Source of the DNA: Gloeocapsa sp. PCC 7428
GTDB lineage: Bacteria; Cyanobacteriota; Cyanobacteriia; Cyanobacteriales; Chroococcidiopsidaceae
Assembly: GCF_000317555.1 (NCBI RefSeq)
Contig: NC_020051.1
Coordinates: 1-64,000 of the forward strand
Direction of reading: 5' to 3'
Length of the DNA: 64,000 bases
The notes under the pieces are model-generated. The model did no database searches, was not told where the DNA came from, and saw only the letters and a list, made by a program, of their open reading frames with translations. A program made the position numbers and the translations under genes. Positions 1 to 48,146 of this stretch are shown here, one piece after another. Numbering within the stretch: the first letter of the stretch is position 1; every line of letters starts with the position of its first letter.

Positions 1-36
1 TACATTGTTATATTGGAATTCCAATATAACAATGTA
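1..36. repeat. 36-bp perfect palindrome
   Basis: Positions 1-18 are the exact reverse complement of 19-36, centred on GGAATTCC. The palindrome begins at the first base of the window, so it may extend further left. Further short TGTAC-containing motifs follow within 310 bp. It could be a protein-binding site, a cruciform at a replication or resolution region, or the inverted end of a mobile element. No gene nearby decides between these. Confidence 0.85.
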
Positions 37-1679
37 CGCTCGTGTTTACCTGTATATACAGTCAAATTTTTAACTGTACAGGGTCAACTTGGTCAACTTA
101 TCCGCCCTTACCTAGATTTATACAGATATTTTAGGGCATGAGTATGCTAGTCTAGAGTGCTTATCTAACAAGGCTTTTACATTTACATTGCATAGATGCA
201 CCTATACAGCTTGCTCGTACAACTGTATAGATGTACAAATATGTCTGTAAGATTGTAGGAATTGCTGTACATATACACTTTTAATTTATTCGCCTTTCAG
301 TAATTGTACGCTCGTAGGAGTGCCTCTGCTCTGTTGATTGTTGGTTGGCTCTTTAGCCTAAAGCAGTGCGATCGCATCCCTATCGTAGCCTCTATTGGTT
401 GCTGATATAGCATACTGCGATTGTTTGACTTTGTTTCTAGCTATCAGCGCGATCACTTGCTTCTTGTGCCTTCATCATTGCTGAGTCAAACAGTGCGATC
501 AAGTGCTAGCCTTGCCTCTAACCGTGTTCTGCTATTGCCTGCCCTGCTGTACTCAGTATAATGCGTCATTTCCCTTGCCTGTCCTCGCTTGCTAGCTCAA
601 GCTCCGCTACTATGCCTCGCCTGATCCTGGATGAATTTCGGGTTTAGCTCGTAGCCTTGCTGATATTGAAGGGCGATCGCTCACATCGCTCACTTTGAAC
701 TCAAGCCTTAGTCCTATCTTACTTAAGCGTATAAAATTGTCTGGCTCCACTGAGCGCCATTATTATACAGCTAAATTTTTGCTGACTAACCGTACGCCTA
801 AACCAGTATTTGTGGTGCTATCTCTGCAATCGCAGCCCTGAGTACTTACCTGTCCGCTACTCCTGCCTGCTACGGCTCAACTGTCTTCGCCCCTAAAAAA
901 CTAAACTAAATCTAAAAACTAAACCTCACTCTCACTCTACATAACAACATGCTGGTTGCACTGTCAGCCTATCGGCTTTAGAGGATGGCAATTCACTGGC
1001 ACGGGCTTTTGGTTTACTAGCGTAGGTGGTCGCCCACCACACCCGCAGCTTGCAATTGATTGCTCTGGGCAATTTGCACATCATCACACAGTCTCTGGAC
1101 TTGAGGCAGAGCAGTCAATCGAGCCGCCATGCACGCTATGTTGACTGACTAGGATTATGACTGGCTTGAGTTGGTGGCTCTGTCATTCTGTCATGATGTA
1201 GTAGAATTGCTGCTACGGCGTTCCCCAACAAGTTAAACTAATTCGGGATTACACACTTTTGCAATACCGAGTTGTTTGACGTTGGGAAAGCTGCATTCAA
1301 TTTTGAGCCATATCGAAGGAGTTATTATCTGCTCCAGCCTTGATGTACGGTTATTGCTATTGGTGTTGGACGCGCGCGGTGCAGGTGAGGGGCAGCTTTG
1401 GGTTGACTTGGTTGCCTTCATTGGCATTGTTTTGTTTCAGTTCCACCACACCTCAAGCAGTGATCGCTACTTTCCTACTCCTGGTGCATGGGGTTCATCC
1501 TACTCCTTCTGACAGCTTCAGGGTTAGATTCCAACCTTCTCCTTATAACTCTTTGACATGACATTCCTCAAATTTCGTTGCACATTTGGTAGGGACACCG
1601 ACAATATTCATTAAAAAATTCGACAGTTTTGTTTCACAGCAGTAATAGCACACGGAAAATCGTATTTTGAATTAAATAA
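37..1679. other. Long stretch without recognisable genes
   Basis: Short open frames here (for example near 956-1144 and 1276-1561) show no domain I recognise and no convincing ribosome-binding site. The stretch contains several HIP1-like GCGATCGC/GCGATCA words. The motif TGTACGCTCGT occurs twice (about 34-44 and 305-315), and other TGTAC or CTGTA words cluster in 34-310. The rest looks like decayed sequence. Confidence 0.5.
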
Positions 1680-1694
1680 TTGGCTAAATTGAAG

Positions 1695-2132
1695 ATGTAT
1701 GTTTTCGATAGCTGCATTTTGGTTGCAGCACTACGCTCTCGACGAGGTGCTAGTTTTTTGATTCTGAGCGCTCTGAGGCAACGAGCCATTACTGGATGTC
1801 TTTCAGAAGCCCTTTTTCTTGAATATGCTGATGTGTTGAAGCGCGACGAGAACCTACGACAGTTTTGGACTTCACTAGAGGAGGTCGATGTGGTACTAGG
1901 AGTGCTGGCAGATGTTTTGAAGCCAGTTCCTATCTATTTCCAATGGCGACCGCAACTAAGCGATCCCAATGACGAAAGAGTTTTAGAATGTGCTATCAAT
2001 GCTCAAGCTACGGCAATTGTCACGTTTAATGAACGAGATTTCCTGCCCTCTACATCACAATTCGGCATTGCAGTGATTCAGCCTGGAGTTTTGGTTCGAG
2101 CCTTGAATTTAAAGGAGCGTTTAAGCGAATGA
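1695..2132 (+). CDS. PIN-domain toxin (putative toxin of a TA pair)
   Basis: Single PIN ribonuclease domain, the usual size for COG1569-type toxins. Acidic residues expected for the metal-binding RNase site are visible: the Asp in VFDSCIL near the N-terminus, the Glu in FLEYADVL, the Asp cluster in SDPNDERVLE, and the Asp ending TFNERDF. I chose ATG 1695, which places the first catalytic Asp in the usual position; an in-frame TTG at 1680 would add five residues. Its stop overlaps the start of the next gene by four bases (ATGA), so the two are translationally coupled. RNase activity is inferred from the family. Confidence 0.8.
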   Translation: MYVFDSCILVAALRSRRGASFLILSALRQRAITGCLSEALFLEYADVLKRDENLRQFWTSLEEVDVVLGVLADVLKPVPIYFQWRPQLSDPNDERVLECAINAQATAIVTFNERDFLPSTSQFGIAVIQPGVLVRALNLKERLSE

Positions 2133-2365
2133 GTTCTTATCTATTGCAATTACCGGAAGAGTTAATGCAAGAAGTACGGCAGTTAGCTGCGGCAAGTCAA
2201 ATCCCCCTAGAGCAATGGTTGATTGCTGCAATTACCCAGCAGCTAGAAGTCGAACGCTCTCTCTCACGCTTGCGGCAAGCAGCACAAGTTGCCGATTACG
2301 AGAGATTTGACCAGATTTTGGCAAGAGTACCAGATATTGAACCGATGCTGGGAGATGAACTTTAA
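2129..2365 (+). CDS. Ribbon-helix-helix-like antitoxin partner
   Basis: A 78-residue protein whose N-terminal part (LQLPEELMQEVRQLAAAS, then a second helix with PLEQWLIAAI) has the beta-helix-helix pattern of CopG/RHH DNA-binding antitoxins. The acidic C-terminus probably contacts the toxin. The gene order is toxin first, antitoxin second, with a 4-bp overlap, the reverse of many TA operons but common for cyanobacterial PIN pairs. Family membership is inferred from pattern and context only. Confidence 0.65.
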   Translation: MSSYLLQLPEELMQEVRQLAAASQIPLEQWLIAAITQQLEVERSLSRLRQAAQVADYERFDQILARVPDIEPMLGDEL

Positions 2366-2511
2366 CATACTTGTCGCATTCCTCGATCAGCGTCCTCTGT
2401 TCCACAGTATCTGCCTCTGTCTTAGAGCCTTTGATTCCTTGCTCTTCCATAGATCGCTCCCAAGCTAACTTAGGCAAAACCTACTAAGCGCGATCGCGTT
2501 CTTCAGCCGTT

Positions 2512-2673
2512 CTTCCTACAATCACGACATCGGACAGTGGGCATCCACAATCAGGAACTTGCCGACACGTTACCATCTTGAGCGAAGATGTTGCTAGACA
2601 TAGTCAGGCTTTGAACCTAGACTTTGAGCCCTTATCCAACTGGGAGGCGATCGCACATCCTCTTCACTGGTAA
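2512..2673 (+). pseudogene. Possible C-terminal fragment of an unrecognised protein
   Basis: One frame without an initiation codon ends at a TAA at 2671 and reads like real protein (…ILSEDVARHSQALNLDF…NWEAIAHPLHW). An upstream TAA interrupts the same frame, so only a tail of roughly 50 codons remains. I cannot assign a family. It lies between the TA pair and the transposon relic, where other fragments occur. Confidence 0.25.
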
Positions 2674-3004
2674 CATGTTTCCTATCCCTAGAACCCTCTA
2701 CTCTTTTTATTCGGTTTTCTACACCTTTTGGTTCGGTTGAAAGGCTTCTATCTACAAAAGGTTACATTCTACAACTGAGATGAATTTGGTGGATGGGCAG
2801 CAGTTTGGTACTAATCTAGCCTAGTTCACTCAACGTCATCTATTGTTCCCAGGTTTAATGACTGGACACCCAGGCATTATCGCTCGTCGAGCAACTTGAT
2901 TCTACACCTCACCAGACAATGACATTTAACGTGGTACTTTTTGTTTAACTGTTTAGCTTCCGTCCTCATATGGCACAAGCTTCGGCTATCCTTATCGATA
3001 TCTC
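2674..3004. other. No gene seen
   Basis: Neither strand has a convincing frame here. It is where the rest of tnsC, and then tniQ, would be expected beyond the truncated tnsC relic. I could not recognise TniQ or Cas12k remnants by eye. Confidence 0.5.
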
Positions 3005-3149
3005 TTAATGCAACAGCGGCGACAAATAGCGTGAAACTTCTTCAAACGATAAATCTACAATGACGTTGCAGGCGTTCGATTTGTTGCTCAGTTGCCGCAT
3101 CAAGTTGACGTTGCGGGGGAATGATGATTTCGATCTCGCGCTGTGTCAC
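3005..3149 (-). pseudogene. tnsC: Truncated, frameshifted tnsC start (CAST/Tn7-like AAA+ regulator)
   Basis: A GTG at 3149 overlaps the tnsB stop by four bases, as in intact tnsB-tnsC operons. The first 30 or so codons (IEIIIPPQRQLDAA, then EQQIERLQ) match what I recall of the N-terminus of cyanobacterial CAST TnsC proteins. A frameshift near 3057 then moves the reading to a second frame (VDLSFEEVSRYL), which stops at 3005. The AAA+ Walker motifs are absent, so no functional TnsC remains. The assignment rests on position after tnsB and on remembered family sequences. Confidence 0.65.
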
Positions 3150-4742
3150 AGTAAGCCTGCCTTCCGTTTTAGGTCTTCGTAATCATAAACCCGCACATAG
3201 GGCACCGACTTCTTCGGCTTGATCGTCTCTGGCTCCGACTCGGTAACAGGTTCAGTTGCAGGCGAATTAACCAGGGAGGATGATACGCTGATGGGTGCAT
3301 CGGTTCCTACGATATCGGGTTGAGCAGCGGTGCGGGGTTTGGGCGCATTCCCGTTTTGTTTTTGCTGCTTTTGGAGTTTCTTGACGCGCTGATCACGATC
3401 GCGCACTTCGTCCAGCATCGATCGATTACTAATGGCTTTGCCTGCTTCTCGTTTGCGTTGGCTGAGTGTCTGGGCTTCTGCATATGACAAGGTTTCGGTT
3501 TCCCAGCCCTGAGCATGGGCACGAGTGAGAAACACTTCTTTACACTCTTGCACCTGATAAATGAAGACAGTCGTGATGTCGCGGGGGTCGTACCGCAGCA
3601 CGACCGATTCTCCGGCATAAGCAGCTAAATGTTCGCCAAGGTATGTTAGATTGGCGAACTGGAGATAGCCACTGCGGTACACCGTTCGGTGATCGCGTCG
3701 CATCAGGCACAGGTCTAACTCGCGTTCCCCTAACAGAGACAGTTGGGCAATGCGTCCGGCTTCCCACCGTCCGATGCGGCTTTGATCGCCCATACGGGCA
3801 TCGATCGCCGGGTTGTAGTGATCCACGATGTAGCGCACAAACAATTGCTCTAGCTGAATTAGCGTTAAACAAGCTTCGGTTTCCGCCACGGGCGATCGCG
3901 TTTCTACATTACTGCTGACATAGCCGGGTAAGGTTGAGAAAAATTGGGTATTGAATGTGCCAAAGGGTCGCTCGACAATCCCACCATCGGAGGGCTTGCG
4001 ACGCAGACACAGTACGATGCCTAATTCGGTTGCCACTTGCTCTAAGTGTTGCGCTCGAAAGTCTTTCCCCCCATCCGTATATAAATATTGTGGTAGCCCA
4101 TACGTCCCCCAGTTTCCCTGCAATTCATAGGCAGAACTGTATTGTTTGGGTAGGATCGCATGGCGTAATGCCAAACACACCACGGCGGCACTAGGCGCGT
4201 CAAAGCCGAGATGCATCCCCATAATGCACCGCGAGTAGGTGTCAACCACGAGCGTTAAGGTAGGTCGCCCTAAAACTTGCCCTGCCTGATCCACCACCAA
4301 CACATCAGCGCGGGTGTGATCCACCTGCCACACTTGATTCGACCACTCGATCCCAATCGCTAATCCTTCACGGGTGTTCAGCGTCAAACGGTCCTGTCGC
4401 CAGCAAGAGCGATCGCTTTTGCTGCTGCTGCTCGATTAACGGCTTCAAGATGCGGTAGACCGTCATGTGGCTCGGATACTCTTGTGTCCCTAGTTCTTGT
4501 GCCCGTACCTTCACCCGCACTGCCACTTGTGCCGGGTTCATTCTCCGACCGCCTCGATTCCCAGAGCGATAAGTTTTCACAATAAACTGCTGCCACTGAG
4601 AGCTGATGCGCGCTTCTCCTCGATCCGAGCGCGATCGCCGGATGATACTCTCCACTCCCTCCTCGCGTAATTGCCGCATCAGTCGGCGCACGCTCCGAAC
4701 GGTCATCCCTAACTTTTGTGCCGCTGCTGCTTGCCACGGCTA
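3146..4742 (-). pseudogene. tnsB: TnsB transposase relic of a type V-K CAST-family transposon
   Basis: This is a DDE transposase of the Tn7/Mu class. The C-terminal frame (3146-4387) has the catalytic core: the Asp in VWQVDHT, the Asp in LYTDGGKDF, and the Glu in GGIVERPFGT, followed by a Mu-type beta-barrel region and a basic tail. The N-terminal frame (4368-4742) has the helix-turn-helix part (QKLGMTVRSVRRLMRQL). The two frames are joined by a single-base frameshift near 4395-4400, within a region that would otherwise read RS-WRQDRLTLNTREG. The reading starts at a stop codon near 4740 with no initiation codon, so I estimate that roughly 60-70 N-terminal residues are missing. The sequence resembles TnsB of cyanobacterial V-K CRISPR-associated transposons. 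It is probably inactive. Confidence 0.8.
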
Positions 4743-4781
4743 TAAAAACGATTCATTGTGTAATCTTCAAAGATTGCTTCT

Positions 4782-4809
4782 TAGATTCTCTAGTAAACTG
4801 AAGAATCTA
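4782..4809. repeat. 8-bp inverted repeat between tnsB relic and RND gene
   Basis: TAGATTCT and AGAATCTA are exact reverse complements separated by 12 bp. The site lies just beyond the RND permease stop codon and could be part of its terminator, although no T-run follows. The centre (CTCTAGT…ACTGAAG) also loosely resembles the MerR-type dyads found elsewhere in the window. Confidence 0.4.
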
Positions 4810-4840
4810 GCTCTCAATTAAAACTTTTCTGACTGTTGAA

Positions 4841-7800
4841 TCAAGCCTGTTCATCAAAGATGTGGATGGATGGCGAGCGCATCAATCGTTCTCGAATCTT
4901 GCTAATCATGATGTAGAGCATGGGCACCACGAATAAACTCAAAAGTGTTGAAACTAACATTCCACCAAAAACTGCCGTTCCTAAGGATTGGCGACTAGCT
5001 GATCCGGCTCCAGTTGCCATAACCAACGGATAAATGCCTAACAGGGTAGAGATGGCTGTCATCAAAATTGGGCGTAATCGCTCCTGTGAGCCTTGTATAG
5101 CTGCTTTAGTAATTGAAAGTCCCTGATCGCGTAATCGATTGGCAAACTCTACAATCAAAATTGAGTTCTTGCTAGCTAAACCAATCAACATGACGAGTCC
5201 AACTTGACAATATACATCGTTATGTAACTCTCGCAGAGATTGAGCTGATAACGCTCCTAGAACCGCCAAAGGAACAGACAACACGATAATGAGTGGATCA
5301 ACAAAATTGTTGTACTGAGCTGCCAGAACCAGGAGTACAAAGAAAACACCTAACCCAAAAATGATGGGAGCCTGCCCTCCAGATTCTAGTTCTTCCAGAG
5401 AAATTCCTGACCACTCAAATCCCATGTTGGGAGGTAACACCTCAGCCGCCAATCTTTCCATGGCTTGAATAGCTTGTCCAGAACTAAACCCAGGCGCGGC
5501 TGTCCCATTAATTTCAATTGATCGATACAGGTTATAGTGATTAATCGTTTGCGGACCAGTTGTTTGAGTCATGGTCATGAGGTTACTCAAAGGAATCATT
5601 TCACCCTGTCTGGAACGCACGTACAACTGACTAATATGTTCTGGATTAGAACGAAATTGTTGATCTGCCTGGATATAAACACGATAGGTGCGACCAAATG
5701 CATTGAAATCATTGACGTAGCGCGAACCGAGATAGGTTTGCAGTGTACTGTAAATTTCATCGACTGAAACTTGCAATGCCTCCGCTTTATCGCGATCAAC
5801 TTCAAGCAACAGTTGTGGTGCGTTTGCCGTATAGGTGCTAAAAACAGCCTGCAATCCTGGGGTTTGATTAGCACGATTGAGCAGTTCACCCTTCATCTGA
5901 TCGAGCGTGCTAATATCACTGGTGGTACGATCGCTTCGATCTTGCAGTTGAAATACAAAACCACCTACACTGCCCAAACTTTGAATCGTCGGTGGATTGA
6001 TTGCCAGCACCGGAGCTTGCGGAATCGCCATCAGTGATCCTCGTACCCGATTCAGAATGCCTGATACCGTCTGTTCCGGATTGGTTCGTTCAGTCCAAGG
6101 CTGGAGGGGCGCAAACATAAATCCTCGATTAGGAGCATTGCCGCTAAATCCTACACCACCAACGGCAAAGGTTGCTCGGATTTCGGGCACGTCGAGCAAC
6201 TGTTGTTCCGCTTGCTCCACAATCTGTTTGGTGTAATTTAAGGATGTGCCATCGGGTCCTTGAATCAAATTGATGAAATATCCTTGATCTTCATCGGGTA
6301 AAAAGGCTTGTGGGACGCGCAGGTAAAGCCAACCCGTTAACCCTAAGGACGCGATAAACAGGATGAGCACGGCTCCCTTAAACCGAATGATGAAATGAAG
6401 GGCACGATTATAAACACGACGCAGCCAATTGAGAAACCCATTGATGCGATTAAAGCTCCAACCTAACCAGCCTCGTGATTGAGGCTGTTGACGTAGCAAT
6501 AGAGCAGAAAGGGCTGGAGTTAATGTCAAGGCATTAAAGGTAGAAATGGCGATTGCAAAGGCAATCGTCAGGGCAAATTGTTTGTAGAGTTGTCCAGTGG
6601 TTCCAGGGAAGAAGCCAACAGGAATAAACACTGCCATAAGAACTAACGATGTAGCGATGACTGCCCCAAATAGTTCGTGCATAGCTTCAATTGCAGCTCG
6701 AACTGGACTCAGCCCTTTTTCTTGAATTAAACGGGAAATATCTTCTACGATAACGATCGCATCATCCACAACCACTCCAGTTGCTAAAGTTAAACCAAAT
6801 AACGTCAGGCTATTGAGTGAAAAGCTGAATAGTTTTACGAATATAAAAGTGCCAATCAAAGAAATAGGAATTGTGATGGCTGGAATGATCGTGGTGCGCC
6901 AGTCCTGTAAGAAGATGAAAATTACCAGCACAACTAGCAACACCGCTTGAACCAGAGTGATGACGACTTCCTTGAAAGATGCCTCTACAAACAATGAAGA
7001 ATCATAGGGAATGTCGTAGGTCAAGCCAGCAGGAAAGCTCTCTGCCAATCGTTGCATTTCAGTCTTGACCGCTTTTGCAATGTTCAAAGCATTGCTGCCT
7101 GGAATCTGAATCACTTGATAGCCAACTGAAACATGTCCTCTATAGCTGGCGAACGAGCTATAGTTTTCAGCCCCTAACTCGACCCGACCCACATCTTTCA
7201 ATTTCACCAGTGTGCCATCAGTTTCGGCCTTCAGCACAATCTCCTCAAACTCGTTTGCGTCTCTCAGTCTACCGATCGCCTGCAAGTCAATTTGATATAG
7301 CTGTTTATCAGGTACAGGTGGTTGCCCAATGCTACCAATCCCTATTTGGATATTTTGCTGATTGAGGGCACTAATTACGTCCTGAGCAGTAAGGTTACGG
7401 CTGGCGAGTCGATTAGGGTCTAGCCAAACCCGCATCGCGTAACGACGTTCGCCAAAAGTAAGAATGTTGCCAACGCCCTCAATGCGCCGGAGCGGGTCTA
7501 GTACATAGAGATCCACATAATTACTAATAAAAATGTCATCATAGCGATCGTCTTCGCTATAGATTGCCATTGCTAAGACAATGCCGCTAGACTGCTTTGA
7601 TACCGATACGCCCGTTTGTTGCACAGCTTCTGGTAAGCGCGGTTCCACTTGCAGTACCCGATTTTGCACATCAGATGCAGCGACATCAATGTCATATCCC
7701 TGCTCAAAGGTGACGACGATCGTACTCGTGCCATCATTACTACTGGTCGAACTCATATACCGCATGCCTTCGACCCCATTAATCTGCCGTTCCAACACAG

Positions 7801-7990
7801 TAGTGACAGTGTCTTCGACGACTTGAGCATTGGCACCGACATAGTTTGCAGTCACCGTGATTTGCACCGGGCTGATGTCAGGATACTGCTCGACAGGTAA
7901 AGTCGGCAGGCTGACTAATCCCGCCACTAGAATAACCAAAGCACCAACGATCGCAAAAACAGGTCGTTTGATGAAGAAATCAGCGAACAT
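4841..7990 (-). CDS. RND efflux permease, HAE1 (AcrB-like) type
   Basis: Inner-membrane pump subunit of a tripartite exporter driven by the proton gradient. At 1049 residues it is the standard length, with twelve predicted membrane helices and two large periplasmic loops. Proton-relay residues are present: paired Asp in TGVVVDDAIVIVED (TM4) and the Lys in GLASKNSILIVEF (TM10). The N-terminus (FFIKRPVFA) and the VEQYPDISP segment are typical of the hydrophobe/drug (HAE1) branch and not of the heavy-metal branch. It follows the adaptor gene after a 32-bp gap and is the last gene of the operon. No TolC partner adjoins it; the one at 61.4 kb is a candidate. The substrate is unknown, but the operon starts with a metal-type MerR promoter. 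Confidence 0.95.
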   Translation of the reverse strand: MFADFFIKRPVFAIVGALVILVAGLVSLPTLPVEQYPDISPVQITVTANYVGANAQVVEDTVTTVLERQINGVEGMRYMSSTSSNDGTSTIVVTFEQGYDIDVAASDVQNRVLQVEPRLPEAVQQTGVSVSKQSSGIVLAMAIYSEDDRYDDIFISNYVDLYVLDPLRRIEGVGNILTFGERRYAMRVWLDPNRLASRNLTAQDVISALNQQNIQIGIGSIGQPPVPDKQLYQIDLQAIGRLRDANEFEEIVLKAETDGTLVKLKDVGRVELGAENYSSFASYRGHVSVGYQVIQIPGSNALNIAKAVKTEMQRLAESFPAGLTYDIPYDSSLFVEASFKEVVITLVQAVLLVVLVIFIFLQDWRTTIIPAITIPISLIGTFIFVKLFSFSLNSLTLFGLTLATGVVVDDAIVIVEDISRLIQEKGLSPVRAAIEAMHELFGAVIATSLVLMAVFIPVGFFPGTTGQLYKQFALTIAFAIAISTFNALTLTPALSALLLRQQPQSRGWLGWSFNRINGFLNWLRRVYNRALHFIIRFKGAVLILFIASLGLTGWLYLRVPQAFLPDEDQGYFINLIQGPDGTSLNYTKQIVEQAEQQLLDVPEIRATFAVGGVGFSGNAPNRGFMFAPLQPWTERTNPEQTVSGILNRVRGSLMAIPQAPVLAINPPTIQSLGSVGGFVFQLQDRSDRTTSDISTLDQMKGELLNRANQTPGLQAVFSTYTANAPQLLLEVDRDKAEALQVSVDEIYSTLQTYLGSRYVNDFNAFGRTYRVYIQADQQFRSNPEHISQLYVRSRQGEMIPLSNLMTMTQTTGPQTINHYNLYRSIEINGTAAPGFSSGQAIQAMERLAAEVLPPNMGFEWSGISLEELESGGQAPIIFGLGVFFVLLVLAAQYNNFVDPLIIVLSVPLAVLGALSAQSLRELHNDVYCQVGLVMLIGLASKNSILIVEFANRLRDQGLSITKAAIQGSQERLRPILMTAISTLLGIYPLVMATGAGSASRQSLGTAVFGGMLVSTLLSLFVVPMLYIMISKIRERLMRSPSIHIFDEQA

Positions 7991-8022
7991 AAGCTAACTC
8001 TGTAATACTAGAAATTCCGGTG

Positions 8023-9309
8023 CTAGGACTCAGGGGTAATCGGTACACCATCCCTTAGAGCCAGGACTCCTGAGGTAACAATGCTTTCTCCTGGCTCTAA
8101 TCCATCAAGAACTTGATAATCATTGCCCTCCACGCTGCCGAGTTCAACCAAGCGCTGTCGAGCCACGAATCCTAACTCTGAAGGTTCAATCACATAAACG
8201 AAGGCTTCCCCACCTAAGCGAGTCACGGCAGTTGTGGGAATAAGTACACCGGGTTGCTGATTCCAAATCACGCTTGCCCGCACAAATTGATCGGTTCGCA
8301 ATTGCCCATCAGAATTGTCAAGCGAGGCTTTGACAAGAACAGATTGCGTTGTGTTAGCTGTGTTAGGAGCAATGAAAAAAACTTGGCTAGTTCCCAATTT
8401 GCGACCCTGGCTGTCGAATAACTCAACTGGGCTGCCTACTTGCAGTTGAGTTGCCTGCTCAGCCGGGATTGAAAAATTTACCTCTAGCGAATCATTCTCT
8501 GAAACGCTGATCAACTCGGTAGAGGTATCTACGAAGTCACCTACTTTCACAGGAATGTCGCCTACAACACCTGCAAACGGAGCCGCAATTTGAAAATACT
8601 GAAGCTGCACCTGTTGTTCTTGAATCCGTGCTTGAGCTTCCTGTACTGCCTTCTCAGCCCGAACAACGGCAGCTTGTTGCGCTTGAATTTGTTCTACAAT
8701 CGCATTGAGGTTAGCCCGCGCGACTTCAATGCGGTTAGCATACTGGTCTCGTGTCTGTTGCGAAACAGCTCCCACTTCAGCCAGTGCCGCATAGCGTTCA
8801 TATTCTTGTTGATTAAGTTCAACATCCGATAATTTAGATACTCGTTCAGCTTCGAGCGAGCGCAATATAGCTCTGACATTCTTCACATTCGCTTGAGCCG
8901 ATTCTACTGCTGCACTGGTACTGCTGACAGCCGCTTGTTGTTCATCTGGATCAATTTGAATGAGTACGGTTCCGGTAGTAACTCGTTCTCCGGGGGTCGC
9001 CAAAATCTGAGTAATTTGACCCTGAATTCTAGGTCGTAATGTTACGGAACGGCGCGATCGCACATTAGCGATGAACTCCGATCTCTCCTGAATGAGGCGC
9101 GGCTGTAGGGTCAAGGTTTTGACGGGCATCGCCGGTTGCTGGGCAGTTGCAGGAACTGGCTCACGACTCGGAGCCAGAACCCACCAAACTCCCAGCCCAC
9201 CGCCCCCTAGCAACAGCAGTCCTAGCAACCACCCCAGGCGAAAGCGACGAGGACGGACTGAAGCCCTTTGAGAAGATGAATTCATTGCAGAAAAATCAGA
9301 TGATTCCAT
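8023..9309 (-). CDS. RND periplasmic adaptor (membrane fusion protein)
   Basis: Links the RND pump at 4841-7990 to an outer-membrane channel. The 428 residues comprise a short basic N-terminus, one membrane anchor (about residues 24-45, Gly/Leu-rich), a lipoyl/barrel-sandwich half (RSVTLRPRIQGQI), a long alpha-helical hairpin rich in Gln/Ala/Glu (about 130-245), the second lipoyl half (FAGVVGDIPVKVGDFV), then beta-barrel and membrane-proximal domains. No lipobox is seen, so it is anchored by the helix. It lies 22 bp after the glutaredoxin-MauE gene and is transcribed with it. Confidence 0.93.
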   Translation of the reverse strand: MESSDFSAMNSSSQRASVRPRRFRLGWLLGLLLLGGGGLGVWWVLAPSREPVPATAQQPAMPVKTLTLQPRLIQERSEFIANVRSRRSVTLRPRIQGQITQILATPGERVTTGTVLIQIDPDEQQAAVSSTSAAVESAQANVKNVRAILRSLEAERVSKLSDVELNQQEYERYAALAEVGAVSQQTRDQYANRIEVARANLNAIVEQIQAQQAAVVRAEKAVQEAQARIQEQQVQLQYFQIAAPFAGVVGDIPVKVGDFVDTSTELISVSENDSLEVNFSIPAEQATQLQVGSPVELFDSQGRKLGTSQVFFIAPNTANTTQSVLVKASLDNSDGQLRTDQFVRASVIWNQQPGVLIPTTAVTRLGGEAFVYVIEPSELGFVARQRLVELGSVEGNDYQVLDGLEPGESIVTSGVLALRDGVPITPES

Positions 9310-9331
9310 AACTCAACCCCAATCATCCTAC

Positions 9332-10156
9332 TCATTTAGCTTCGTAGTTTCCTTCTCGTAGCTGCACCACCGCTGGAGGCAATGCTTCTAGACTTCGCAT
9401 CGACTGAATATTTGCCTCTGACAATGCAGAAAAGGTTAGCACTCCACCCATCACTGCCATGATTGCGTTCTCAGCAAAACTGACGACACCCAGTGGTGCT
9501 TTAGAGTTACCGCCCACACAAGCGCAATTTAACGCCAGCTTATCAATGTAGACCGCTTTGAAGACCGAAATTGCACCACTCACACCAACAATCAATGACC
9601 CAATTCCAGTAGCAAGCGGGGCAACGCCAGAGAGAAACCCAAGCCCAATTAGTAACTCAGCAAAGGGATAGATTTTTCCATAGGGCTTGAAGCGCTTGGT
9701 GACGAGGTCATATTTTTCAAAGCTCTCGGCAAAAGCGTTAATATCCATCAATTTGAGCGAAGCCAGCATTGAGAGCGAAAATCCCATGAAGCCAGGAATT
9801 CCAAGCGATGTGGCAAGCGCCATTAGTCCGGCCGTCGAGAAGACCGCAGCGACTGGAGTATAGGAATACTCGGCTTTTTCTGCTTCTACCTTTAGCCGTT
9901 CTGCCAAATCTGTGTAACCTCCAACTCGTTCTTTACCAAAGAAAATCTGAGGGGTAGTGGCAACACCGTATTTTGCTTTGAACTGATCGACTTCTTGGCG
10001 CGATCGGAGTTTAACATCCTCGAATTCCATACCTTGCTCCTGAAGCAATTTGATCGCACGAAGTCCCCAAGGGCACTCATGCTCAGGCATAGACATCCGA
10101 TAAACAGTAACGGATGTAGCAGTCGTATTTTTAGTTTTTCGATTCATAACAGTCAT
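9332..10156 (-). CDS. Glutaredoxin-MauE/DoxX fusion membrane protein
   Basis: Residues about 15-90 form a glutaredoxin-like fold with a CPWG active-site motif (one Cys only in the usual CxxC place) and the cis-Pro segment VATTPQIFF. Residues about 95-250 form a four-helix MauE/DoxX-like membrane domain with the signature CACVGGNSKAPLGVVS. Such proteins are thought to handle thiol or disulfide exchange at the membrane; this is family inference. ATG 10156 has a strong GGAGG seven bases upstream. It is the first gene of the RND operon, downstream of the MerR-type promoter at 10316-10347. Confidence 0.8.
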   Translation of the reverse strand: MTVMNRKTKNTTATSVTVYRMSMPEHECPWGLRAIKLLQEQGMEFEDVKLRSRQEVDQFKAKYGVATTPQIFFGKERVGGYTDLAERLKVEAEKAEYSYTPVAAVFSTAGLMALATSLGIPGFMGFSLSMLASLKLMDINAFAESFEKYDLVTKRFKPYGKIYPFAELLIGLGFLSGVAPLATGIGSLIVGVSGAISVFKAVYIDKLALNCACVGGNSKAPLGVVSFAENAIMAVMGGVLTFSALSEANIQSMRSLEALPPAVVQLREGNYEAK

Positions 10157-10161
10157 AATTT

Positions 10162-10176
10162 ACCTCCTGGAGGTTA
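10162..10176 (-). promoter_or_regulatory. Self-complementary ribosome-binding site
   Basis: The Shine-Dalgarno of the glutaredoxin-MauE gene sits inside ACCTCCAGGAGGT, whose arms ACCTCC and GGAGGT are complementary. The one-base spacer is too short for a tight local hairpin, but the arm could pair with the SD in a longer structure. Whether this affects translation is unknown. Confidence 0.3.
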
Positions 10177-10315
10177 AAAATTGTGTTGAAGGCTGCCACA
10201 ATTGTGATACTCGATCTGCCAGCTAGTACAAATGCTGCAATCCTGATGCACGAGGAGGCACAATCTTTTTAAAGGCATTGCAGCCAGAGCAATGATCCTG
10301 GCTCAACTGTTCATC

Positions 10316-10347
10316 ACTGGAAACTGTACAGTAAACTGGAGAGTCAA
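10316..10347 (-). promoter_or_regulatory. MerR-type promoter of the glutaredoxin-RND operon
   Basis: The -35 TTGACT (10347-10342) is followed by a 20-bp spacer containing CTCCAGT…ACTGTACAG, then a poor -10 (TCCAGT). The over-long spacer with a central dyad is the hallmark of MerR-activated promoters. It points at the gene starting at 10156, about 160 bp away. Confidence 0.6.
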
Positions 10348-10377
10348 GCTTTTTTCTCATCATTTATAATCAGCAAG

Positions 10378-10893
10378 CTACAGCCCAAACTCAGTCTTGA
10401 GTTGAGCAACCCAAGCCTTGATGCGTTCTTCTGTTAGTTCAGACTGGTTGTCTTCATCTAGGGCTAGCCCCACAAACTTACCGTCTCGGAGTGCTTTAGA
10501 ATCACTGAACTCATATCCTTCAGTAGACCAGTAGCCAACCGTTTCGCCACCAAGTTCAGAAATTTTTTCCTCCAGTATTCCCATTGCATCCTGGAAAGTA
10601 TCGGGATAGCCAATTTGATCGCCTTCTCCAAAGTATGCAACTTTCTTTCCGCTAAAATCGATGTTATCTAGCTGATCGTCGTAGAAACTTTCCCAGTCGC
10701 TCTGTAGCTCTCCTACGTTCCAGGTCGGACATGCAATGATGATGTACTGATATTCATTAAAGTCGTTAGGTTCAGTTTGCGAGATATCCTGTAGTGTTAC
10801 AACAGCGTCACTACCAAACTCTTTTTGAATCAATTCTGCTGCGGTTTGCGTGTTGCTTGTTTGAGTTCCATAAAACAAAGCAATCTTAGCCAT
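10378..10893 (-). CDS. fldA: Flavodoxin
   Basis: FMN-binding electron carrier that replaces ferredoxin under iron or oxidative stress. The FMN phosphate loop GTQTSNTQTAA is at residues about 8-18. The aromatic loop regions PTWNVGELQSDW and YFGEGDQIGYPD flank the flavin site. The full length (171 residues) is of the long-chain type found in cyanobacteria. I chose ATG 10893 because GGAGG lies seven bases upstream; an in-frame ATG four codons earlier lacks one. It stands alone and is not next to isiA. A degenerate MerR-like site lies 245 bp upstream. Confidence 0.95.
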   Translation of the reverse strand: MAKIALFYGTQTSNTQTAAELIQKEFGSDAVVTLQDISQTEPNDFNEYQYIIIACPTWNVGELQSDWESFYDDQLDNIDFSGKKVAYFGEGDQIGYPDTFQDAMGILEEKISELGGETVGYWSTEGYEFSDSKALRDGKFVGLALDEDNQSELTEERIKAWVAQLKTEFGL

Positions 10894-10905
10894 AATTACC
10901 TCCAA

Positions 10906-11339
10906 GGAAAATAACGATTAGGAACAAAATCATCGAATGAAAGGCAACTAACAGGATCTATCAGTGCTGTTAGCTGAGAGTAAATGTTCTAAAAGATTAG
11001 ATAAATGCATAGCTTGATTGAGGCGATCGCTAATGTAATTTCGGTACCAGATAGCTAATTTTGTCTGAGTCAACTTGGTTTTTAGCTCAGTCGAACAGCT
11101 TTTGGATCAATTTATAACTTGCTTGCTGAGATAAATTCACTTTCAGTCTCTAGTTAGCTAAAGAGTCACGATGATCTCACAAAAAACTCAAAAAAATTCT
11201 ATTTTTGTTTGGGTTTTAAAATGTTGTTATTGAACGGGTTCGCCTTAATCAGTTGATCCGCTCTAATCATGAAAATCATAACCTCCTGCCAGCCCTAAAG
11301 GTGTTCGGTTTAGTGGGACTTAGGCATGAAACACACTGA
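10906..11339. other. Flavodoxin upstream region
   Basis: There is no gene in this 434-bp stretch between flavodoxin and merR, both on the minus strand. It holds the flavodoxin ribosome-binding site, one HIP1 octamer near 11030, and the degenerate MerR-like promoter at 11138-11169. Confidence 0.6.
11138..11169 (-). promoter_or_regulatory. Degenerate MerR-like promoter before flavodoxin
   Basis: GTGACT, a 20-bp spacer with CTTTAGCTAACTAGAGACT, then AAAGTG, on the minus strand. The spacing and right half-site match the good MerR sites of the window, but the -35 and -10 are poor. The site could be decayed or coincidental. Confidence 0.3.
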
Positions 11340-11753
11340 TTAAACCCGTTCAATAATTGGACAAATGGTATCTTCAGGATGTTCAGGAATGGTTTCCCAA
11401 CCTGATAGTAATCCTCTTAATTCCTGTTTGAGAATTTGCAGTTGCTGGATTTGTTGTTCGATCGCCTCCAGCTTATCTTCCAACTTTACCTTGATGTGAT
11501 CGCACGGTAGGTCGCCCTGGTCGTAAACATCTAGAAATTCCTTAATCTCCGACAGACTTAATCCTAATCCTTGGGCACGCTTGATGAAGCTCAACCGAGA
11601 GAACACATCTGAGTTAAACAAGCGATATCCACCTTCAGTTCTCCCAGTTGTCTTCAGTAAACCTAGCTCTTCGTAGTATCGAATCGTTTTGATCGGCATA
11701 CCACTTGTTTTTGCAACTGAACCAATCAATTTAGGAGAGTGTTGAACTAACAT
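11340..11753 (-). CDS. MerR-family heavy-metal-responsive regulator
   Basis: A 137-residue regulator: N-terminal winged helix (about residues 8-75, with KTIRYYEELGLL), a long dimerisation helix (about 88-118) and a short metal loop. Cys84 (DLPCDHIK) corresponds to the ZntR-type cysteine at the start of the dimer helix, and Cys131 (TICPIIE) to the second loop cysteine of CueR. The first loop cysteine of CueR is not seen (residues 119-130 contain none). The metal is therefore uncertain: copper from context, divalent ions possible from Cys84. MerR proteins twist long-spacer promoters on metal binding. It is the likely regulator of the MerR-type sites listed here, including the one just upstream of itself. 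Confidence 0.9.
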   Translation of the reverse strand: MLVQHSPKLIGSVAKTSGMPIKTIRYYEELGLLKTTGRTEGGYRLFNSDVFSRLSFIKRAQGLGLSLSEIKEFLDVYDQGDLPCDHIKVKLEDKLEAIEQQIQQLQILKQELRGLLSGWETIPEHPEDTICPIIERV

Positions 11754-11787
11754 ACCGACTACACCATCCTCTAGTGTTCTTTCTTCT

Positions 11788-11819
11788 ATCCTAAACTCTC
11801 TAGTCTACTAGAGAGTCAA
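11788..11819 (-). promoter_or_regulatory. MerR-type promoter of merR
   Basis: TTGACT, 20-bp spacer with the almost perfect dyad CTCTAGTAGACTAGAGAG, then TAGGAT. The -10 is 35 bp before the merR start codon. It suggests autoregulation and is the best-formed example of the motif in the window. Confidence 0.8.
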
Positions 11820-11857
11820 GGGGCGTTGCAGGGCAATTGTCACTGAACAAACATCGC

Positions 11858-12829
11858 CTACCTCACCTGTATTGAAGTTTGAGCAATAACCTTCCCATCA
11901 CTAGTGCTATTAGAAGCTCGCACTTCAATCACACCACGATTCATCTTCATGCCACACATGAACTCATACTCGCCTGCTTGTTCTGGTGTAAATTCCACCG
12001 TTGTTGTTTGATCGAGTGGAAGGTTCACCGTGATCGCAAAGTCTGGAATCATTAATTGGTCATAGCAACTACTGGGATTTTGGCGATCGAAATGCAAACG
12101 AACGGGGTTTCCAGCTTCGACGATGACTCGCTTTGGTTGATACCCTTTCGCAACGGTTATGGTTGCCTGTTGGATTCCTGCTGGTGTCATTATCGCTTCA
12201 ACACCAGAGGCTGAAACCGTAGACTGATCCGCGTGATGAGTGTGATCAGAGTGATGAGTAGGTTGAGGAACAGAGGCGATCGCCATTGCCATACCTCCGT
12301 TTGCAGACTGCACTTCCACCACACCTCGAAACATATTCATGCCGCAGGTAAACTGATATCTGCCAGGTTTATCAGGCGTAAACTCGATTGGGGTGATTTG
12401 GTTGAGTGGTAGCTCTTGGGCGATACGAAAATCAGGGAAACGTACCTCCTCTAAGCAACTGCTGGGATCTTTGCGATCGAAGTTTAATCGCACGGGTTGC
12501 TCAGCTTGCACCACAATATGGCTCGGTTCATATCCACCATCGACTCTGACAGTCACCTCCTGAACTCCGCCCTGAGTGGTTGCCTTACGCGACTTTGGTT
12601 TACTGAGCAGAAACCACCACAGTTCCAACCCAATTAACCCTAATCCACCCAGTGTTACCGCTACTTTATTCGCAATAGGTTGATCAATGCGGCGAAATTG
12701 TCCGGTTTGTTCAGTCGGCTGCATGTCGCTCATGTCGTGAGGCATTTGTGCAACCGCTCTGCTAGATGCTACTCCTAGCACTAATCCCAAGCTTGCAATA
12801 CCACTGATGATTGTTGTTTTCTTCACCAT
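11858..12829 (-). CDS. Membrane-anchored protein with two cupredoxin domains
   Basis: A 323-residue exported protein: signal-like segment (about 5-28), one further hydrophobic helix (about 53-72), then two homologous cupredoxin modules (about 88-173 and 215-310). Each has the pattern DPSSC…PDF and a C-terminal F.CGM.M.RG.IEV/VEV, giving Cys and Met ligands suitable for copper. A His-rich linker (HHSDHTHHADQ) joins the modules. Last gene of the copZ-copA operon. It probably binds or relays copper outside the membrane; the function is inferred from fold and context. Confidence 0.8.
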   Translation of the reverse strand: MVKKTTIISGIASLGLVLGVASSRAVAQMPHDMSDMQPTEQTGQFRRIDQPIANKVAVTLGGLGLIGLELWWFLLSKPKSRKATTQGGVQEVTVRVDGGYEPSHIVVQAEQPVRLNFDRKDPSSCLEEVRFPDFRIAQELPLNQITPIEFTPDKPGRYQFTCGMNMFRGVVEVQSANGGMAMAIASVPQPTHHSDHTHHADQSTVSASGVEAIMTPAGIQQATITVAKGYQPKRVIVEAGNPVRLHFDRQNPSSCYDQLMIPDFAITVNLPLDQTTTVEFTPEQAGEYEFMCGMKMNRGVIEVRASNSTSDGKVIAQTSIQVR

Positions 12830-12841
12830 CGAGAAATCCTC

Positions 12842-12940
12842 CTATCCAAGTGTCCCTAAGATTGAGCCGGAAATCACACCGAGCAGAAAACCGAATCCTA
12901 TGAGTGTTCCAAAAAACGCTATTGTCTTGAGCATTGTCAT
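12842..12940 (-). CDS. 32-residue single-helix membrane peptide
   Basis: Starts at ATG 12940 with AGGAGG immediately upstream and stops with TAG. The product is one hydrophobic, Gly/Phe/Leu-rich helix (TIAFFGTLIGFGFLLGVISG) with a single early lysine. It fills the gap between copA and the cupredoxin gene in the same direction, so it looks like a real operon member. It could be a small regulatory partner of the CopA pump; that is inference from position and size alone. Confidence 0.65.
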   Translation of the reverse strand: MTMLKTIAFFGTLIGFGFLLGVISGSILGTLG

Positions 12941-12965
12941 TTCCTCCTGCTTTCGTCCGTTTCAT

Positions 12966-15269
12966 CTAACTCCGTGTTTTAGGTTGAAAGTTCCGCAGAC
13001 GTAGCGCATTCGTCACAACCGACACTGAACTGAATGCCATTGCTGCACCCGCAATAATTGGACTGAGCAACCAACCGAAGATCGGGTAGAGAATGCCAGC
13101 CGCGATCGGAATGCCTGCCACGTTGTAGATGAAGGCAAAGAATAGGTTTTGTTTAATGTTGCGAATGGTGGCGCGAGAAAGTTGAATTGCAGTCACGATG
13201 CCTTGCAAATCCCCAGAGATCAGCGTGATATCACTGGCCGCGATCGCCACATCCGTTCCCGTGCCAATTGCCATCCCGACATCCGCTTGAGCGAGAGCAG
13301 GCGCATCGTTAATACCATCTCCCACCATTGCCACAATTCTGCCTTCTGATTGGATTTTTTCTACGGTTGCCGCTTTTTGATCGGGACGCACTTCTGCAAA
13401 CACTCGTTCAATCCCCACTTCCCGCGCAATCACTTCGGCGGTACGACGGTTGTCTCCAGTCAGCATCACCACTTCTAAGCCTAATTTTTGCAAGGTGCGG
13501 ATTGCATTAACCGAAGAGGATTTAACGGCATCGGCAATCCCCATAATGCCCTCAACTTTGCCATCTACGGCAAGCCAAATGACGGTTTTGCCCAAGTATT
13601 CCAATCGTTCCCACTGTTGCTGCAAAGCACTCGTATCAATGCCCAACTCGTTCATCCAACGATGCGTACCAATTTGCACCAAATGCATTTGGCTCTGTTG
13701 CTGTGCCTGAGGCAAATGTATTTGCAAACGGTCTGATACATATCCCTGTACGCCGCTTCCAGCGATCGCCTCAAATTCTCGCGCATCTGCTAATTCCACA
13801 CCTTGAGCTTGGGCATATTGCACAACTGCCTCAGCAAGGGGATGTTCGGAATTGCGTTCCACCGATGCAGCTAATTGCAGTAATTTTAATTCGTTGCGAT
13901 TGGCTGTACCATTCACTGTGACGAAATCGGTAACAGTGGGTTTTCCTTGCGTGATTGTCCCTGTTTTATCAAGGACGATCGTTTGGAGCTTATGCGCCAT
14001 TTCCAGGCTTTCTGCTCCTTTGATCAAGATGCCGTTCTCGGCTCCTTTTCCCGTACCCACCATGATCGAGGTGGGTGTCGCTAATCCCAGCGCACAGGGA
14101 CAGGCAATAATTAGTACACCAACGGTGGTAATCAATGCTATTGTAACGTTACCGATGATGTTGTACCAGAGGATGAACGTGAGAATAGCAATCGCAATCA
14201 CCGCAGGCACAAACCATCCCGTCACCTGATCGGCAAGTCGCTGAATCGGAGCTTTGGAACCCTGTGCCTGTTGCACCAGCTTCACAATTTGCGCTAAGAA
14301 AGTATCTTTACCCACCCGCGTTGCTCGGAATTTGAAGCTACCTGTTTTGTTGATCGTTGCGCCAATCACTTCATCGCCCGGATGTTTTTTAACGGGAATA
14401 CTCTCTCCCGTGACCATCGCTTCATCAATGGTGGAGGAGCCATCGACAATCTCGCCATCCACCGGAATCTTTTCACCCGGACGTACCAAGACGACATCTC
14501 CCAACACGACTTGTGCGATCGGCACATCTACTTCTTGCCCATTGCGAATCACTCGTGCGGTTCTCGCCTGCAACCCCATCAGCTTACGAATGGCTTCAGA
14601 GGTTTGTCCCTTTGCCCGGTTCTGTAACAACCCTCCCAACAGAATCAAGGCAATAATGACGGCTGCCGCCTCAAAGTACACATCCGGACTCAGCCCCTGG
14701 TTCACGAACCACTGAGGGAAAAATGTCGGAAATAGCGAGTAAAGATAAGCGGTTCCGGTGCCGATCGCCACCAGCGTATCCATCGTTGCGGTATGGCGTT
14801 TTAAGGCTTTCCAAGCATTGACGAAGAATTCACTTCCTGCCCAAAACAATACGGGAGTTGTGAGGACGAGCTGGAACCAGGGATTGTGCAGCCACATGGG
14901 GATAAAGGGAATGGGTAAGCCTGTCATAACAGGCAGTGAGCCAATTACCAGAATGGCGCTGACAACACCACTGACCCAGACTTTACGAGTTAACTTACGG
15001 TTCTCGGCTTGTCGTTCTCGTCGTTCCGCATCATCTTCGGGGGCAAGCACATCATCTTGCATGGGTTGAGCTGCATATCCTGCCGCATCAACCGCTTCCT
15101 GAATCGCGGCTACGTCCGTTTTACTCGGATCGTAGGTGACAGATGCTTGCTCGGCTCCGAAGTTGACGCTGCATACTTCAACACCGGGAACCGATCGAAT
15201 TGCTTCTTCAATGTTGTTGGCACAGGAGGCACAACTCATGCCTCGCAGTTTTAAGGTTGCGTTTTCCAT
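12966..15269 (-). CDS. copA: Copper-exporting P1B-type ATPase CopA
   Basis: Pumps Cu+ out of the cytoplasm using ATP. One N-terminal metal-binding domain with MSCASC (Cys13, Cys16), then membrane helices, the actuator TGES (about 287-290), the transmembrane CPC (Cys390, Cys392), the phosphorylation Asp in DKTGT (about 434), HP near 476 in the nucleotide domain, and GDGINDAP. The 767 residues are full length, and the CPC with the downstream YN and MxxSS segments fits the Cu+ (P1B-1) group. It lies 31 bp after the CopZ-like gene and shares its MerR-type promoter. Confidence 0.96.
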
Positions 15270-15300
15270 GTGTTACCCCCCATTTCTCTGGATGCTTTGC

Positions 15301-15495
15301 TTATGCGACGGTATAACCCGCATCAGTAATGGCTTGTTTGATTGCCGTTTCAGACTGCTGCGTTTCAATATTGACCAACTTGGTTTTAGGATCAGCTTGT
15401 ACCGTTGCCACCGGATCAACAGCTTTGACAGCGTTCGTGATGGTTTCTCCACAAGCGGAACAAGCCATATTGGGAACAGTAAGCTGTAAGGTCAT
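15301..15495 (-). CDS. copZ: CopZ-like copper chaperone (HMA domain)
   Basis: A single heavy-metal-associated domain of 64 residues with NMACSACGETI as the Cu+-binding CxxC, which would deliver copper to CopA. I chose the second ATG (15495) because GGAGG lies nine bases before it; the first ATG (15504) directly abuts the SD. First gene of the operon copZ-copA-small peptide-cupredoxin. A second, interrupted copy lies at 26892-27004. Confidence 0.92.
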   Translation of the reverse strand: MTLQLTVPNMACSACGETITNAVKAVDPVATVQADPKTKLVNIETQQSETAIKQAITDAGYTVA

Positions 15496-15526
15496 GATTT
15501 TCATCCTCCTGCTATGAACTATCTTT

Positions 15527-15558
15527 ATCTTGAAGTGTCCAGTACACTAGAGAGTCAA
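15527..15558 (-). promoter_or_regulatory. MerR-type promoter of the copZ-copA operon
   Basis: TTGACT, 20-bp spacer (CTCTAGTGTACTGGACACTT), then CAAGAT, reading toward copZ. The leader between promoter and SD resembles that of the YtkA-like gene at 16446. Confidence 0.8.
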
Positions 15559-15603
15559 GGGGGGGCAAGCAAATTTTGAAAACCTATCAAAAGACAGAAC
15601 CAC

Positions 15604-16446
15604 TTAGCTTGAGTAGGTTTGTTGCTCGGCAATCCGTACAACGAAGGGGACGGTAATGACCTGTCCATCACGCTGTAACTGTGCCCAGGTTTTGTAAAGT
15701 CCAGCACGAGGAAAGCTTGTATGTGCGCTAATTTGAGGGGTGATGGTATCGACTGAGTGCAGTTCACCAGAGTGTGTGTGTTGATGAGTAGAGGATGAAA
15801 CTGCATGATCGGAGTGATGGGCTGCCGATGCGCCGTGATGCTCCATCGGATGAACATGCAGAAACTCTGCGCCATCTTCGCTGATGATGACAAAGTGGGC
15901 GAGCGCACCCAGGTAAGGTTGAAGATCGGTGACTGGCTCATGGGTCTGCTCATCTTCAACAACAAAATCGAGCAGTACGCCTTCACCCGCACGCAGGGGT
16001 TGGTTTGCCCTCATTGTGACTCGTATGCCATTCACTGTTTTCGTTGGGAGTTCATCTTCAATCAGGGCGATCGACTCACGTGCTTTTCCGAGAACTTGCA
16101 GACTCAGTTGATTCACAATTTGGTGCGTGTCGATCGGCGTGTAATCGACATAAAGCCGATAATTACCAGCTTGTGGAAAGGTATGCGTGACACGAAAACG
16201 ACCATCGGTTTGTTGTTCTGGATGCAAGTGATGGAACTCGCTCAGGTCTTCAGAGACGACAAGCAGATGCATGGCTTGCTCATGCACAACTTGGAGATTG
16301 TGCATGAGCAAGCCATTGGCATTCCGAATGGTAAAAACAAGGTCTACCACCTCACCCGCTTTAACGTCGGCAGGCTTTGATTCAAACTCAACTTGATAAG
16401 CAGATAGAGCCGGACCTGCGATCACATTTTCAGTGGATGTCATCAT
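15604..16446 (-). CDS. His-rich protein with YtkA-like domains
   Basis: 280 residues with two beta-rich YtkA/FixH-like halves (about 15-120 and 125-270). The second half carries a loop of alternating His residues (MEHHGASAAHHSDH, then THQHTHSGELH), and the first half has FHHLHPEQQ and MHLLVVSED segments, all plausible Cu/Zn ligands. I see no clear signal peptide, although related proteins are usually periplasmic or membrane-linked. ATG 16446 has GGAGG six bases upstream. Its own MerR-type promoter lies at 16475-16506. Metal binding is inferred from residues and context. Confidence 0.7.
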   Translation of the reverse strand: MMTSTENVIAGPALSAYQVEFESKPADVKAGEVVDLVFTIRNANGLLMHNLQVVHEQAMHLLVVSEDLSEFHHLHPEQQTDGRFRVTHTFPQAGNYRLYVDYTPIDTHQIVNQLSLQVLGKARESIALIEDELPTKTVNGIRVTMRANQPLRAGEGVLLDFVVEDEQTHEPVTDLQPYLGALAHFVIISEDGAEFLHVHPMEHHGASAAHHSDHAVSSSTHQHTHSGELHSVDTITPQISAHTSFPRAGLYKTWAQLQRDGQVITVPFVVRIAEQQTYSS

Positions 16447-46244: not shown

Positions 46245-46406
46245 TTTTAGATGAGAAAGTAGAATTTAAGGCAACGATCTGTTTGGTCAGAAAAGCTAAC
46301 CTTGATTTTGCCATGCCAGCAACTTTAAACAGATGCGAGTGCATCAAGCACATTGTTAAACTCCAGCCTTAGCATTTCCTGTTGTACTTAAGGATATTTG
46401 TCATCA

Positions 46407-48137: not shown

Positions 48138-48146
48138 AATATCAAT

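Follow-up and report, generated by a model that had tools for sequence, protein, structure and literature searches.

Near the start of the window, by which is meant the whole 64,000-nucleotide stretch of Gloeocapsa sp. PCC 7428 DNA that was analyzed, lies a decayed tnsB-tnsC gene pair, and the question it raises is what kind of mobile element left it there. The original prediction regarded the pair as the residue of a type V-K CRISPR-associated transposon (CAST) that had inserted into a genomic island and had since lost its targeting components. The analysis described here points to a different origin: two or three Tn7-like telomeric transposons, nested and decayed, very probably occupy the left end of a hairpin-telomere linear plasmid in a cyanobacterium close to Gloeocapsopsis, and the relic would be the oldest of them.

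The tnsB relic is located on the minus strand at positions 3149–4742 and retains the catalytic D-D-E residues, but carries one frameshift. The closest full-length homolog is the TnsB protein of Pelatocladus, which is 85% identical to the relic and provides the numbering used here. In tblastn comparisons, residues 179–595 were matched in an open frame from 4402 to 3149 on the minus strand and residues 72–177 in a second frame from 4724 to 4407; both these segments and the DNA alignment place the frame change at 4403–4410. The catalytic and C-terminal part of the gene (residues ~179–595) therefore occupies 3146–4402 as a single open frame with the D-D-E residues intact, and the N-terminal part (residues ~66–177) occupies 4407–4742, with the first ~65 residues of the protein absent. 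The best relative of solved structure is the TnsB protein of the Scytonema hofmannii CAST element, ShCAST (E = 4e-139). The motifs VWQVDHT, YTDGGKDF, and GIVERPF contain the three acidic residues of the catalytic site, which align with their counterparts in ShTnsB. The tnsB stop and tnsC start overlap by 4 bp (3146–3149). Thus, the description of the locus as a decayed Tn7-like relic with a V-K-like TnsB, all three catalytic residues, the short gene overlap, and neither Cas12k nor an array was borne out.

The limits of the relic required revision. The tnsC fragment, again on the minus strand, comprises codons 1–31 only (3057–3149) and is 93% identical to Pelatocladus TnsC. As protein and DNA comparisons alike show an abrupt end of the homology at 3057, neither a boundary at 3005 nor a frameshift in tnsC is supported; a frameshifted tnsC that extends to 3005 was ruled out because the DNA at 3005–3056 is transposon left-end DNA held in common with Gloeocapsopsis dulcis. 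The frameshift in tnsB was real, and the gene pair is truncated on both sides as anticipated, with the N-terminus of tnsB missing and tnsC cut. The ratio dN/dS for the relic tnsB against the Pelatocladus gene was ~0.12, the same as among intact copies, so that the damage to tnsB looks recent on this sequence measure. The relic itself is inactive, and the genome search detected only this one TnsB in the host.

The provenance of the relic was examined by searching 390 cyanobacterial genomes with a model of ResT/TelK telomere resolvases, with the relic TnsB, and with a Cas12k model, after which the loci were fetched and mapped. Two types of gene map emerged. In the first, tnsB-tnsC-tniQ is followed by a convergent open reading frame (ORF) of ~120 codons, which is present in nearly all of these relatives, and often by a ResT/TelK gene, with no Cas12k nearby. 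In the second, Cas12k lies beyond tniQ, at distances of up to about 17 kb, and the small ORF is absent. The closest relatives of the relic, with TnsB identities of 72–85%, have no Cas12k beside the transposase genes, and those for which the flank was available possess the convergent small ORF, a telomere resolvase of the ResT/TelK type, or both. In a maximum-likelihood tree of 55 TnsB rows, 15 Cas12k-linked rows were separated from 25 small-ORF/resolvase rows by a branch with 100/100 support and the relic was nested among the latter, whereas none of 500 label shuffles gave an equally good separation. A second tree that included ShTnsB showed the same split. The test is not circular since the labels were assigned from neighboring genes and the tree was built from TnsB alone. 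By these sequence criteria the relic TnsB clade is sister to the type V-K CAST clade, and the relic is not a CAST that lost Cas12k.

Descent from a type V-K CAST from which cas12k, the CRISPR array, and tniQ were deleted would be consistent with the strong match to ShCAST TnsB, with the similarity of the TnsC and TniQ proteins of the relatives to ShTnsC and ShTniQ, and with an identical gene order in which TniQ is small. The relatives further resemble ShCAST in possessing a TGT-starting left end upstream of tnsB. CAST left ends begin with TGT. Nevertheless, this descent is highly improbable. The relic falls within the Cas12k-less clade and not among the Cas12k-linked TnsB proteins in both trees, all close relatives with an available flank lack Cas12k beside the genes, and the relatives carry the small ORF and often a telomere resolvase where ShCAST has Cas12k and an array. 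No match to the Cas12k family NF038191 above the cut-off was found in the host genome, the best score being 19.5 bits on the chromosome, and no array-like repeats were detected at positions 1–16000 of the window. The sole repeat-like match, GGTTCGGTTGAAAG at 2730–2743, has two mismatches and a chance expectation of 0.32; it was rejected as a V-K repeat remnant because a match of this quality is expected by chance. The best database matches are thus to a non-CAST Tn7-like element. Identity as a Tn5053-type element (TniA) was also rejected, as the top matches are V-K-like cyanobacterial TnsB proteins (72–85%) and those on plasmids of other bacteria are about 30–37% identical. The ancestral CAST insertion that was proposed originally, and the accompanying expectation of Cas12k or repeat remnants in the vicinity, consequently were not upheld.

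The small ORF encodes a protein of ~120 amino acids in opposite orientation to tniQ, with 13 invariant residues among 21 sequences, and no Pfam or NCBIfam match was found for it. The predicted structure is all-helical with a mean pLDDT of 72 and a pTM of 0.34, values that are too weak for a fold search. Within the plasmid collection the ORF was found only on plasmids of G. dulcis and Gloeothece verrucosa PCC 7822. A role in targeting or telomere binding would be a guess.

The replicon on which the relic resides displays features of a linear molecule. The window corresponds to bases 1–64000 of a 201,822-bp contig (C5) in a genome of five contigs that is 100% complete. A perfect 36-bp palindrome centered at 18/19 occupies positions 1–36, and the same 36 bp end the contig; the palindrome is read as read-through of a covalently closed hairpin telomere. 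The palindrome forms part of a terminal inverted repeat of 1,340 bp, whose copies at positions 1–1340 and at the far end of the contig (C5:200483–201822) are 100% identical. In G013, another genome from the same genus, the ends of a 270,008-bp contig (C6) reach 45 bp further and display a 126-bp palindrome with the same center at both ends. The ends of these two plasmids are 100% identical over about 20 kb each (G013:C6, L067:1–20000 and L089), bar 161 mismatches that all are situated within window positions 6515–9357, in efflux pump genes, as if this segment had been exchanged. The plasmid also encodes a telomere resolvase of 770 amino acids (C5:186157–188469; PF16684, E = 2e-59). Thus, a terminal palindrome, a terminal inverted repeat, and a resolvase gene, which characterize hairpin-telomere replicons, all are present in the sequence. 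The island of the original prediction is instead the end of a plasmid; tRNA attachment sites, which were also envisaged, find no counterpart as neither a tRNA gene nor an Rfam match was detected within the window. A broken telomere resolvase gene with two TAG stops is located on the host chromosome (G000:C1:2378702–2379906; L069, L071).

Plasmid unnamed1 of G. dulcis AAB1 is among the closest known counterparts. Its telomere resolvase is 86% identical to the C5 protein, and a perfect palindrome of 2 × 1,738 bp (L114:21322–24798; NZ_CP119970.1, about 209322–212798) has a center that matches the window telomere. The plasmid also bears a transposon left end that is 87% identical to window positions 2647–3060. 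In contrast to C5, it retains its own left end, a tnsC tail, a tniQ remnant, and the small ORF, but no tnsB there, and the record was deposited as circular. The G. dulcis genome was assembled with Trycycler and was called closed by its authors (PMC10516996), which favors a reading in which C5 also is a circular plasmid with a 2.7-kb palindrome, devoid of telomeres and with the transposon relic incidental. We consider this reading quite improbable: two assemblies end within 18 and 63 bases of the palindrome center, on both sides, and the plasmid encodes a telomere resolvase. Linearity here is read from assemblies, for which the remaining alternative is a large palindrome within a circular molecule, and the simplest reading of the sequences is that the C5 and G. 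dulcis plasmids both are linear with hairpin telomeres. On this interpretation, unnamed1 probably is a linear plasmid that was closed by the assembler.

Intact relatives reveal the anatomy from which the relic decayed. The left end is defined by a pair of elements in genome G164 that are 100% identical to each other; it reads 5′-TGTCGCGTCTCACGC... and lies about 0.3 kb upstream of tnsB. Ends starting with TGTCG are located 0.2–0.4 kb upstream of tnsB in most relatives, and at least seven of them retain a core sequence, GATGTAGTAYGG, at a distance of 89–90 bp from the terminus. The relatives are arranged in the order left end, tnsB, tnsC, and tniQ toward the telomere, followed by the convergent small ORF, often the resolvase, and the telomere. 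When contigs of 100 kb or more were considered, nine of the 10 tnsB genes of the telomeric type were situated within 14 kb of a contig end and the tenth was 10 kb from a palindrome center, whereas among contigs of known length none of 12 Cas12k-type tnsB genes was within 25 kb of an end. One contig (G390:C3) was left out of these counts as its length was only estimated. Proximity to contig ends may be inflated by assembly breaks at repeats, but the single 5.46-Mb contig of G074 has elements at both ends. An element in G161 (C3) that is near a contig end but points away from it counts against the pattern. The linear plasmid Cy782202 of G. verrucosa PCC 7822, deposited as linear, has tnsB-tniB-tniQ-small ORF-protelomerase in this order toward its end and a VapC-type toxin gene nearby. 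This element differs from the relic in that it is intact and its TnsB is only 56% identical, and no palindrome was seen in the first bases of the record.

Mirrored copies of such elements were observed in several assemblies. Within a 1.5-Mb contig (G164:C1, about 916522; L073/L074), a long perfect palindrome is flanked on both sides by mirrored tnsB-tnsC-tniQ-small ORF-resolvase arrays; it represents either a telomere junction that was not resolved or two copies of the same end that were wrongly joined. A Pelatocladus contig (JAHHHW010000042.1; L002) is a perfect mirror image about its middle, each arm of which carries tnsB-tnsC-tniQ and a partial ResT/TelK ORF. A 416-kb contig (G263:C3; L082, L124) has terminal inverted repeats of roughly 11 kb (98.7%) with an element at both ends, and the 4.5-Mb contig of the same genome (G263:C1) starts with the same element.

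The relic reads toward the telomere 3 kb away, with the start of tnsB 4.7 kb from the terminal palindrome, and the intervening DNA contains two further left-end fragments, both on the minus strand and pointing toward the telomere. The interior fragment (2647–3060; layer B) matches the subtelomeric G. dulcis left end, positions 143–573, at 87% identity, and a TTGT microhomology marks its junction with codon 31 of the relic tnsC (layer A). A motif scan located one TnsB-site-like repeat within layer B, at 3017–3034; across the whole plasmid the scan scored like a shuffled control, such that this match is notable by position only. The outer fragment (layer C) is a 31-bp left-end terminus, TGTCGAATTTTTT..., at 1595–1625, identical at 29 of 31 positions to the G. 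dulcis terminus (E = 4e-7). Of the transposon ends for which a search had been suggested, these fragments were found and are assigned to other layers, and the left end of layer A upstream of tnsB has been deleted. As these two fragments lie between the relic and the telomere, the relic is read as the oldest layer. Layers A, B, and C (the last from 1625), then the telomere, may therefore represent successive nested insertions. The tip of layer B is missing, which requires that its junction was shaped by a later deletion, and layer C is represented by the 31-bp piece only. No convincing remnants of tniQ, the small ORF, or a second tnsB were found elsewhere on the plasmid.

Rather than two or three nested generations, the fragments could derive from a single telomeric element scrambled by internal rearrangement. 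They correspond to different parts of one left end (G. dulcis positions 17–47 and 143–573), which thus could have been broken and moved. However, both are oriented like tnsB yet are downstream of it, for which a single element would need additional moves, and nested arrangements exist elsewhere: in G164 (C7) the left end of one of the two identical elements begins within the tniQ gene of an earlier element that has lost its telomere-side half, and the left end of G074 is similarly arranged. Scrambling consequently appears unlikely and nested insertion is the preferred reading. Between the left-end fragments on the plus strand are genes for a PIN-domain toxin (1680–2132) and a small partner (2129–2365) that resemble a toxin-antitoxin pair and are putative members of an element. 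PIN/VapC pairs are near the telomere both here (1680–2365) and on the PCC 7822 linear plasmid (L112:25084–25694), and might act as stabilizing genes.

The original prediction also proposed that the element had carried metal genes into the locus. Efflux and metal genes start at 4841, on the other side of tnsB, where the outer boundary of the relatives is only a few hundred bp upstream of tnsB. As these genes lie beyond this boundary, the element does not explain their arrival; from the arrangement of the sequence they would not have been carried by it, unless by a larger structure that is not visible in the window. Genes for a copper-type P-type ATPase, a multicopper oxidase, and CusA/CusB-like efflux proteins, named from their translations, were noted at 12966–15269, 43495–45018, and 46398–51284.

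Telomeric transposons have been described in bacteria whose genomes are linear (Hsieh et al., Science 2025, 387, eadp1973; cited in PMC12669027 and PMC13228271). These elements reportedly resemble the present one in having Tn7-like tnsB/tnsC/tniQ genes near and facing the telomere of a linear replicon in a cyanobacterial host, with no Cas12k, and differ in that the window keeps only a degraded tnsB and a tnsC stub. Tn7-like TnsB and TnsC, relatives linked to the small ORF or resolvase, and a telomere-facing position, the defining features applied here, all were found. Thus, the relic is a degraded new member of this kind. The published survey reportedly covered cyanobacteria. Possibly new are the recognition of the small ORF as a hallmark, the remnants in layers, and the plasmids of Gloeocapsopsis, including the circular-deposited G. 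dulcis replicon with its telomere junction.

A mechanism can be envisaged in which TnsB, TnsC, and TniQ would join the left end of the element to DNA near the end of a chromosome or plasmid. The other boundary of the element would be the telomere that it carries, such that the old end is replaced in a one-ended reaction, and the resolvase would regenerate hairpins from the palindrome formed on replication. With every further insertion the preceding element would lose its half on the telomere side; such a loss would be the cause of decay here and would leave tnsB with 31 codons of tnsC. More tentatively, and with the balance of judgment somewhat against it, cyanobacterial telomeres may grow by stacking, with one-ended elements of the Cas12k-less clade repeatedly replacing linear-plasmid ends, each truncating its predecessor, and the ~120-amino-acid protein taking the place of Cas12k in targeting.

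A TnsB of the V-K-like kind that has no Cas12k with it need not be a broken CAST, and misannotation on this basis is a likely risk; such a protein instead can mark the end of a linear replicon. The two clades provide a comparison set in which the same transposase core serves two targeting modes, RNA-guided and telomere-directed. Moreover, the findings suggest that a cyanobacterial genus that tolerates desiccation carries linear plasmids, and one of these plasmids has been deposited as circular.
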